Shown here piece by piece: positions 34,852-38,584 of a DNA stretch of 38,584 nt. The translations under genes and the position numbers were made by a program. The notes below the pieces were generated by a model, which ran no database searches, was not told the DNA's origin, and saw only the letters and a list, made by a program, of their open reading frames with translations. Within the stretch, counting starts at the first letter, position 1. Every line of letters starts with the position of its first letter. The stretch spans positions 1 to 38,584 of the forward strand of contig WQYB01000019.1 in assembly GCA_009781475.1 (NCBI GenBank), written 5' to 3'. The DNA is from Treponema sp. GTDB taxonomy: Bacteria; Spirochaetota; Spirochaetia; Treponematales; Breznakiellaceae.

Positions 34852-34983
34852 TTGTTAATGCTCCTTAATTAATTATTTCTTTGTATTTAATTTTAGCCTG
34901 TTATAGATAAATATTACAAGTAATATAAAAATGGCTTGATTAATAAAAGTAATTATTTTATTGTTAAAAAACAGGAGCAAAAC

Positions 34984-35620
34984 ATGAAAGTCATAGCTGT
35001 AAACGGAAGTCCCAGAAAAAAATGGAATACGCATATCCTTTTGGAAAAAGCTCTTGAAGGCGCGAAAGAAATGGGAGCCCAAACGGAATTGATAAATCTT
35101 TACGATATAAACTTTAAAGGCTGCACAAGCTGTTTTGCCTGTAAATTAAAAGGTGTTACTATCAGCAAATGCGCCATGAAAGACGAACTGGAACCAATCC
35201 TGCAAAAAATCTGCGAATGTGACGCTCTTTTATTGGGTTCTCCTGTATATTTCAATTGTGTAACAGGAGAGAATGAGGTCATTTTTGGAACGCCTATTTT
35301 TTCCTTATTCTTCATACGAATTAAAACCATCCACCTTCGGAAAAAATATAAAAACAGCATTTATCTACACAATGAATGTACCGTTTTTTGCCCTACCCTT
35401 AATCGGCTACAACAAACTGTTTCGTTATTTTAAAAGAAGAATGAAACATGTATTTGGCAATTCAGAATATTTATTATCAACATCAACGTATCAATTTGAC
35501 GATTACAGTAAATACGCGATGACTATTATTAAGGGAGAAAACAGGGTTAAAAGGCGAAAGAAGATTTTTCCAAAAGACTGTCAAAAAGCGTTTTTACTTG
35601 GCAAGAGATTGTGTAAGTGA
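34984..35620 (+). pseudogene. Flavodoxin-fold NAD(P)H-dependent FMN reductase, frameshifted
   Basis: GGAG precedes the ATG at 34984. The first frame reads MKVIAVNGSPRKKWNTHILL, the FMN phosphate loop of this family, then GCTSCFACKLKG and LLLGSPVYFNCVTGE near codon 96. There the family sequence (MRSFLERLFFP, then TMNVPFF and STSTYQFDDYSKYAM up to FPKDCQKAFLLGKRL) continues in another frame from the ATG at 35273 to a TGA at 35620. Two extra bases at GGAGAGAATG around 35268-35272 explain the shift. The first frame alone runs on for about 55 unrelated residues to 35433. Unless the sequence is wrong the enzyme is lost, although both halves remain well preserved, suggesting a recent event. Confidence 0.82.
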
Positions 35621-36843: not shown

Positions 36844-36896
36844 GAAAATTACATGAAAAAGGGTTTAATTAAGAATACTAACAGGGGATCATATAA

Positions 36897-38584
36897 ATGT
36901 CGATGGTGTTTCCAGAAGAAGTGAAATGTCCGCTCTGTAAAGAGAAATTCGAATATATGTCGGAAATTTCACATACTATCTTTGGGCATAACCTAGATTT
37001 TAAGCCTTTTGGAGCTGCCATAATACCGACAAATATACCAAAATGTCCGAAATGTAAGTTTGTATTTATTGATAAGTATTTTAAGAAAAAGGAAATAGAC
37101 AAGTTAAAAGAGATTTTTGAAAAGTATAATTTTTATAAGAAAGAGCCTGATATGCCTGATTATTATTATCTGGCTAGACAATGCGAAACACTTGAAAGAA
37201 AACCTGATGATATAATTTATTATTTTAATTGTGCTATTTGGGAACTATCAACGAACCCGCAGGGTGAAGTTTCTAGAGCAGATGATAAAAAGAAACATTT
37301 TAGACAGATTGCAGAAATTGTTTTTGAATATATAGAAAAAACTGATAAAGAAAATAAAAATTATATTTATAGGCTTATAAAATTAGACTACCTTAGAAGA
37401 TTAAAAGAATTTAGTGATGCAAAAAAACTTATACTTGAACTTGTAGAGGATAAAACATTTCCAGAAAAATATATGCCTGTTTTAGACAAGCAGTATGATT
37501 TGATTAAAAATGAAAATACCAGTGAACATGAAATGCCGGAATTAAAGAAAAAAGAAGATGTAAAAGAGCCAGAAACACAAATAAAGAAAGAAAAACCGTT
37601 TATACCCATTAAACCAGTACTCCCACTCAAAATATTTTTATCAGAAACTTTTGATTATGGAAAAGCTAATGAAAATCAGAAGATGGCAATTTCCACTACC
37701 GAAGGTCCAGTTCTTATTACCGCAGGTCCGGGTACTGGCAAAACTTTTACTCTTGTGCAGAGGGCGTTACTTCTTATACAGGAAAAAGACGTAAAACCAG
37801 AAGAAATTTTAATGGCGACTTTTACAGAGAAAGCCGCTAAAGAACTTGTTACCAGAATTAGTAATACTTTGTTAAAAAAGAATATTCTGCTTAATCTGAA
37901 AGAAATGTATATAGGTACTTTTCACTCAATATGCTTACGATTTATAAAAGAGAACCTTGAATACTCTACGATTAAGAAAAATTATCGTACACTAGATGAT
38001 TTTGACCAGAAGTATACGATAATGCGGAAGATAAAACTATTTGAAAATATTGATAATTTCCATTTGGTTATAGAAGAAAAAATGGGGATATGGGATAAAG
38101 CAGCAAAGATTTGCCAATATGTGAATAATTTGTCGGAGGAATTAGTAGACCCTAATGATTTGAAAAAAGACAGCAGACCAGAAATCAAGGCATTAGGTGA
38201 AATAATGGAAACTTATAATTCCATTCTTGATGAAGGTAATTTGATGGATTTTTCGAAGTTGCAAACAGAAGCGTATAATTTAATATTGAATAACCCTGCT
38301 GTACTGGAAAAATTACAGAGTAAGATAAAGTATTTAATGATTGATGAGTACCAAGATACAAACTATATACAGGAAAGAATAGTATTTTTATTAGGTAATA
38401 AATCAGGGAATATCTGTGTCGTTGGTGATGATGATCAAGGGTTGTATCGTTTTAGAGGGGCTACAATCAGGAATATACTTGAGTTTCCAAGCCGTTTTGA
38501 AACAGGTTGTGTTCAAATACCTTTGATTGTTAATTACCGTTCAAACAGCGATATAGTTGGTTTTTATAATGACTGGATTGAAAA
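36897..38584 (+). CDS. DUF2225-like zinc module fused to a UvrD/Rep superfamily I helicase (3' end outside window)
   Basis: One uninterrupted frame of 562 codons runs off the right edge. Residues 1-60 hold two Cys pairs (C11/C14 in CPLC, C50/C53 in CPKC), as in DUF2225 proteins. Residues of about 60-190 are helical and TPR-like, followed by a Lys/Glu/Pro linker to about 250. The rest is a UvrD-type helicase: motif I GPGTGKT at 277-283, Ia ATFTEKAAKEL, IGTFHSICLRF, Walker B DEYQD at 483-487, motif III VVGDDDQGLYRFRG and motif IV NYRS. All ATPase residues so far are intact. UvrD-type proteins unwind DNA in repair and in several phage-defence systems. I do not know this N-terminal fusion; the missing end may carry a nuclease. 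Confidence 0.88.
   Translation, partial: MSMVFPEEVKCPLCKEKFEYMSEISHTIFGHNLDFKPFGAAIIPTNIPKCPKCKFVFIDKYFKKKEIDKLKEIFEKYNFYKKEPDMPDYYYLARQCETLERKPDDIIYYFNCAIWELSTNPQGEVSRADDKKKHFRQIAEIVFEYIEKTDKENKNYIYRLIKLDYLRRLKEFSDAKKLILELVEDKTFPEKYMPVLDKQYDLIKNENTSEHEMPELKKKEDVKEPETQIKKEKPFIPIKPVLPLKIFLSETFDYGKANENQKMAISTTEGPVLITAGPGTGKTFTLVQRALLLIQEKDVKPEEILMATFTEKAAKELVTRISNTLLKKNILLNLKEMYIGTFHSICLRFIKENLEYSTIKKNYRTLDDFDQKYTIMRKIKLFENIDNFHLVIEEKMGIWDKAAKICQYVNNLSEELVDPNDLKKDSRPEIKALGEIMETYNSILDEGNLMDFSKLQTEAYNLILNNPAVLEKLQSKIKYLMIDEYQDTNYIQERIVFLLGNKSGNICVVGDDDQGLYRFRGATIRNILEFPSRFETGCVQIPLIVNYRSNSDIVGFYNDWIE

Follow-up and report, generated by a model that had tools for sequence, protein, structure and literature searches.

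The window, that is, the whole stretch of 38,584 nucleotides analysed here, ends in a gene that joins a cysteine-knuckle head to the motor of an SF1 helicase. The open frame (36897-38582, forward strand) starts with an ATG immediately preceded by a TAA and runs through 562 codons without a stop. Because it stays open to the end of a contig that is exactly 38,584 bases long (contig C19 of genome G000), the gene is cut and its 5' part is what the assembly holds. The features of the fusion gene are as follows.

36883..36887, forward strand: AGGGG, Shine-Dalgarno-like by eye, 9 nt 5' of the ATG
36897..38584, forward strand: 5' part of the fusion gene (562 codons), truncated where the contig stops
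36897..37541, forward strand: head (about residues 1-215) with cysteine knuckles and predicted helices, at best a distant DUF2225 relative, without a hydrophobic export segment
36927..36938, forward strand: first cysteine knuckle, CPLC (C11 in 10 and C14 in 7 of 10 aligned heads)
37044..37055, forward strand: second cysteine knuckle, CPKC (C50 in 10 and C53 in 8 of 10 aligned heads)
37536..37649, forward strand: Lys/Glu/Pro-rich linker of 38 residues in which no helicase start codon is left
37650..38582, forward strand: N-terminal ATPase part of a helicase assigned by sequence to the UvrD-Cas4 type of SF1, matching residues 2-311 of the protein P0001 of locus L006
37722..37745, forward strand: motif I (Walker A), AGPGTGKT, residue 276
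38343..38360, forward strand: motif II, DEYQDT, residue 483
38421..38462, forward strand: motif III, VGDDDQGLYRFRGA, residue 509
38532..38543, forward strand: motif IV, NYRS, residue 546

A sequence-only reading of this DNA had described a zinc-module head that continues without a break into a complete SF1 motor. The continuity is confirmed, as the CPLC...CPKC head, the linker and motifs I to IV lie in a single frame with no stop. The motor, by contrast, is complete only as far as motif IV, after which the contig ends. The fusion protein stops at the position of residue 311 of its 954-residue relative P0001, and motifs V and VI and the C-terminal domain are therefore not seen. A search of the window's own genome bin with residues 311-954 of the L006 protein did not recover the rest of the helicase, and the last 18 bases of the contig, used to look for the rest of the gene, occurred once. 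Upstream of the fusion gene, the Pfam match of an FMN-reductase-like frame (34936-35433) ends near residue 112, at position 88 of the 152 in the profile, and the gene looks broken or fused.

The Pfam UvrD-helicase domain covers residues 258-534 of the fusion protein (E 3e-74). Besides the motifs listed above, two further stretches lie at residues 308 and 340, and we take the six (276, 308, 340, 483, 509 and 546) to be motifs I, Ia, Ib, II, III and IV. Relatives were drawn from the best 80 of 579 confirmed stretches of a contig scan. The proteins of the best 22 of these 579 (L004-L025) are 45-65% identical to the motor over about 310 residues and mostly about 960 residues long, and the motor reaches up to 66% identity with family members over a similar length. 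A full Pfam scan of the L009 protein gave matches to UvrD-helicase, UvrD_C, PDDEXK_1 and Cas4, and P0001 scores 60.3 for Cas4, near the cut-off of 65. The C-terminal 644 residues of the L006 protein find a match at E 0.001 in 89 of 392 genomes of the phylum, the match being nearly full-length in six only (G105, G261, G091, G237, G189 and G069). A quick IQ-TREE tree built from 97 motors groups the window's motor with 15 UvrD-Cas4 proteins in a set of 16 rows (SH-aLRT 97), separate from the proteins of PcrA type; in this tree, the protein of L024 (Treponema) stands beside that of G237, from the same order, which suggests that the host is a spirochaete. A placement among the housekeeping helicases PcrA, UvrD and Rep, with which the motor shares motifs I to IV, was ruled out, since these lie on a separate side of the tree and the NCBIfam scores are far below the cut-offs, partly because the fusion protein is partial. 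Judged by its sequence, the motor is a member of the UvrD-Cas4 helicase-nuclease clade and not a housekeeping UvrD. Nor is the gene an ordinary housekeeping helicase of all treponemes, the counter-reading considered at the outset: the helicase was found in 2 of 195 genomes of the family (at E <= 1e-60, a limit that we set to exclude PcrA paralogues), and the fusion in the window's genome only.

We sampled 37 UvrD-Cas4 relatives that score 360 bits or more against the L006 protein; L098 (229 bits), which the tree places among the UvrD-Cas4 rows on a long branch, lies outside this sample. In 34 of the 37, at most 28 residues of open frame precede the motor, and in L091 there are 82, but a start codon lies 7 residues before the motor. 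A large head is missing in 35 of the 37, in agreement with the earlier statement that such helicases start at the motor, whereas the window protein has about 250 residues of head and linker, with its presumed nuclease half outside the assembly. A C-terminal cysteine cluster pattern is present in 31 of the 37, and three of the other six run off their contigs.

Paired N-terminal cysteine knuckles are typical of DUF2225, and the head carries such a pair in C11/C14 and C50/C53. All four cysteines are present in 7 of 10 aligned heads; those of G110, Bartonella and Novosphingobium lack one or two. From these cysteines, on which the prediction rests, the head probably binds zinc. The DUF2225 identity proposed earlier was not upheld by a separate profile search: the PF09986 profile gives 11.3 bits (E 0.28) against the whole fusion protein and 16.8 bits (E 0.006, residues 6-87) against the head alone, short of the gathering score of 21. 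E 0.1 is reached by 3 of the 10 aligned heads, and two head relatives cover most of the profile length, likewise below the gathering score. We therefore regard the head as, at best, a distant relative of DUF2225, similar to it through a weak profile match at residues 6-87 and different in being fused and apparently cytosolic, whereas most head relatives look exported. A sub-threshold Pfam match to DUF7479 spans residues 43-75 (E 5e-4). The TPR-like region of the sequence-only reading fared little better, the signs of it being one head relative that matches TPR_8 at E 0.04 and an AlphaFold single-sequence model of residues 1-218 that is helical with a pLDDT of 45. A search of the PDB by sequence with the head profile returned matches at chance level (best E 0.19). 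According to PMC12236494, a DUF2225 member affects motility in Leptospira biflexa, so that the wider family is not specific to defence. A literature search on DUF2225 together with helicases, at listing level, brought up a single plasmid paper.

At E <= 0.001, the head was matched in 3 of 98 relatives, 4 of 392 phylum genomes, 9 of 390 order genomes and 9 of 195 family genomes, four overlapping sets each of which includes the window. These tallies contain two entries that we do not count as heads, G193 (29% over residues 60-218, with no cysteine knuckles in frame) and G521 (a match of 28 residues). A strongly hydrophobic N-terminal segment of export type is present in 8 of the 10 aligned heads, as called by a hydropathy estimate rather than a signal-peptide predictor and with some start codons chosen by us; the two heads without it are those of the window and of G569, its closest relative (50%). 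The G569 protein (L138:94-1197) lies on a contig that ends about 90 bases past the gene. After an EHEMPE stretch that it shares with the window protein, it continues for about 155 residues with 41% identity to a portion of a NucS-type protein. That protein, annotated as 'endonuclease NucS domain-containing protein', is encoded on an Acinetobacter plasmid with type I R-M genes on either side, in the single NucS-type record of its kind that we inspected. No Pfam domain was named in the C-terminal 155 or so residues of the G569 protein, which presumably form a domain of the EVE/PUA-like kind, and a literature search on NucS with an EVE domain and restriction found nothing. In G007 (L084:6765-8783), an export-type head is joined to an LRR_5 tail, a BspA-type leucine-rich repeat region. 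The head genes of G110, G507 and G553 are cut by contig ends. Two pattern-based scans of viral contigs confirmed no head relatives there, and plasmids gave five records with distant heads (28-32% identical), of which the two inspected are stand-alone and of export type. On a Bartonella sp. plasmid, such a distant export-type head (L141:5932-6543) lies near SUKH-3 and barstar-type genes, a setting that resembles that of immunity genes.

The relatives of the helicase have recurrent neighbours. We searched 36 loci with a helicase by tblastn, using the Mod proteins of L006 and L009 and the Res proteins of L006 and L018 as queries; Mod was present in 24 of them, accompanied by Res in 20. In every one of these 20, helicase, Mod and Res follow one another in this order on the same strand, with extra sequence between them in L008, L024, L130, L159 and L162. 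Mod matches N6_N4_Mtase, and Res matches ResIII and a TnsA-like nuclease. Of the 12 loci in which these queries did not find Mod, L005, L017, L023 and L025 are truncated in or just past the helicase gene, L016 and L128 carry Mod/ResIII genes too divergent to be picked up by the queries, L012, L019, L022, L132 and L160 show neither Mod nor Res in the stretch examined, and L011 shows neither within 1.9 kb downstream. Within the window's 16-row clade, helicase-Mod-Res operons occur in L004, L006-L010, L127, L130 and L159. Mod- and Res-type genes also follow the helicase in 5 of 6 plasmid and phage records inspected, the cassette being found on plasmids of Enterococcus, Priestia (with divergent Mod/Res), Phaeobacter and Nitrosomonas and in a phage genome, and not on the Annamia plasmid. 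In the phage (PV036426.1, L130), the helicase, a 246-aa gene without assigned function, Mod and Res lie together near the end of the record. A literature search on TnsA, UvrD and type III found nothing; a paper of 2017 (PMC5704561) already links UvrD-Cas4 fusions to type III Mod/Res.

Mod and Res are both present in the window's own bin, on contigs C57 and C142, with the helicase on C19. The single Res of the bin (C57:1458-4244) is open over 928 aa, 50% identical to that of L006, and matches ResIII and the TnsA-like nuclease. Mod lies in two pieces (L121:1-513 and L122:1-1455) at the ends of C142 and C57, where the two contigs have 43 bases exactly in common. The C142 piece contains an in-frame stop and the C57 piece a frame break; Mod therefore reads as broken in the assembly, and the restriction system of this genome may be decayed. 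On C142, it is not the helicase that precedes the start of Mod: the genes there are one judged by eye to be of XRE type and one that is weakly CHAT-like (E 0.002, below the cut-off), and upstream of Mod there are also an HTH/M78-peptidase gene and a YhcG-type nuclease, the latter accompanied by an antidote-like gene. As the bin is 93.3% complete and 5.0% contaminated, C57 and C142 might be foreign.

G056, the second family genome with the helicase, has helicase, Mod and Res on one contig. Between its helicase and Mod (L159:7035-10264) lie a GmrSD-like gene, an AAA gene weakly similar to MAD3 from the MADS system, and a gene without assigned function; as this interval is occupied, an interrupted order is possible in the window's genome as well. 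Strong Res matches are confined to the same two of 195 family genomes, G000 and G056, two further Res rows being weak local matches. Counting all 195 genomes, this co-occurrence gives a Fisher p of 5e-5, a value to be read with the fact that G000 was chosen for its helicase and supplied the Res query, so that the weight falls on G056; without G000, it is one coincidence in 194 genomes (about 0.005).

We think it likely that the gene encodes a UvrD-Cas4-type helicase-nuclease, an accessory subunit of a type-III-like R-M system, to which a cytosolic cysteine-knuckle head has been added. The earlier proposal of a dedicated, defence-linked helicase is thereby supported, given that the motor belongs with UvrD-Cas4 helicase-nucleases that mostly lie beside type-III-like Mod/Res genes, and the fusion probably represents a rare form of an already known defence of bacteria against foreign DNA. 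We consider it unlikely that the protein is instead a stand-alone helicase of DNA repair or element maintenance with an added head and no restriction link in this organism. Stand-alone UvrD-Cas4 genes and a possible repair-like role are noted in PMC5704561, the six loci described above show no Mod or Res in the stretches examined, and the Mod of the window's genome is broken and does not adjoin the helicase. However, the only other family genome with the helicase is also the only other one with a strong Res match, and several members of the window's 16-row clade have helicase-Mod-Res operons. A Gabija-like helicase (GajB) of a two-gene defence pair is a very improbable identity for the motor: although the PADLOC GajB profiles match it (best E 4e-52), the RTasHel and PcrA profiles outscore them, and both the tree and the Cas4-type C-terminus of the relatives point elsewhere.

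A further question is whether the join is real. The fusion was found only in the window's genome among 98 relatives and 392 phylum, 390 order and 195 family genomes (overlapping sets), and of the records matched by the window protein, 2160 from plasmids and 132 from phages, not one reaches 80% coverage of it at a single site. A fusion seen once, where a contig stops, in a 5% contaminated bin whose Mod is broken, is what an assembly chimera or pseudogene would show, with head and motor derived from different genes or strains. Against such an origin, which we judge quite improbable, stands the seamless frame itself: random DNA with the composition of the upstream intergenic stretch would leave a linker of this length stop-free with a chance of about 0.02, before a one-in-three frame factor is applied. 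Moreover, no ATG, GTG or TTG is left from codon 213 to the motor, a Thr occupies the position of the start Met of P0001, and the closest head relative (G569) is also fused, after the same EHEMPE stretch. For these reasons, chance or misassembly is an unlikely, if possible, source of the join.

If the protein is a restriction-linked helicase-nuclease with an added head, Mod/Res would first mark or cut unmodified DNA, the helicase would then load on the DNA ends and run in the 3'-5' direction, and the C-terminal Cas4-like nuclease, which lies outside the assembly, would degrade the strand as RecB/AddA-type enzymes do. Such degradation from the ends after restriction is suggested by the RecB/AddA-type enzymes and by the prediction in PMC5704561. 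The head would perform no chemistry and might dock the motor on a partner, be it the Mod/Res complex, another defence protein or a DNA feature, as its cysteine knuckles, the low-confidence helical prediction and the second fusion to a restriction-linked domain suggest. Two partners stand behind the head after EHEMPE, the UvrD-Cas4 motor in the window and the NucS-associated domain in G569. It is conceivable, though we hold it rather doubtful, that spirochaetes turned an exported cysteine-knuckle protein into a cytosolic head on at least two restriction-associated proteins, and that restriction systems reuse the head as a module for targeting or for sensing infection.

The UvrD-Cas4/Mod/Res core is already known from 2017, and the system described in PMC5704561 has in common with ours the motor clade, the operon partners of the relatives and a predicted ancillary role in defence; the architecture with the head is new, very rare, seen once and incomplete. 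A literature search on the role of UvrD-Cas4, conducted mostly at listing level, returned that prediction and no experiment that we recognised. UvrD-Cas4 proteins travel with type-III-like restriction genes on chromosomes, on plasmids and in a phage, and the head variant, together with a second protein that has the same head and another restriction-linked domain, offers a handle on docking partners. Large N-terminal heads on UvrD-Cas4 proteins are otherwise found, among the 37 sampled relatives, only in the two Synergistota loci L011 and L012 (genes at L011:6765-10913 and L012:6690-10967), where about 435-444 residues precede the motor. Unlike the window's head, that of L011 matches a DEAD-type helicase, and no Mod or Res was found in the two Synergistota stretches examined. 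Within this sample, the helicase family thus carries two unrelated heads, one in the window and one in Synergistota.
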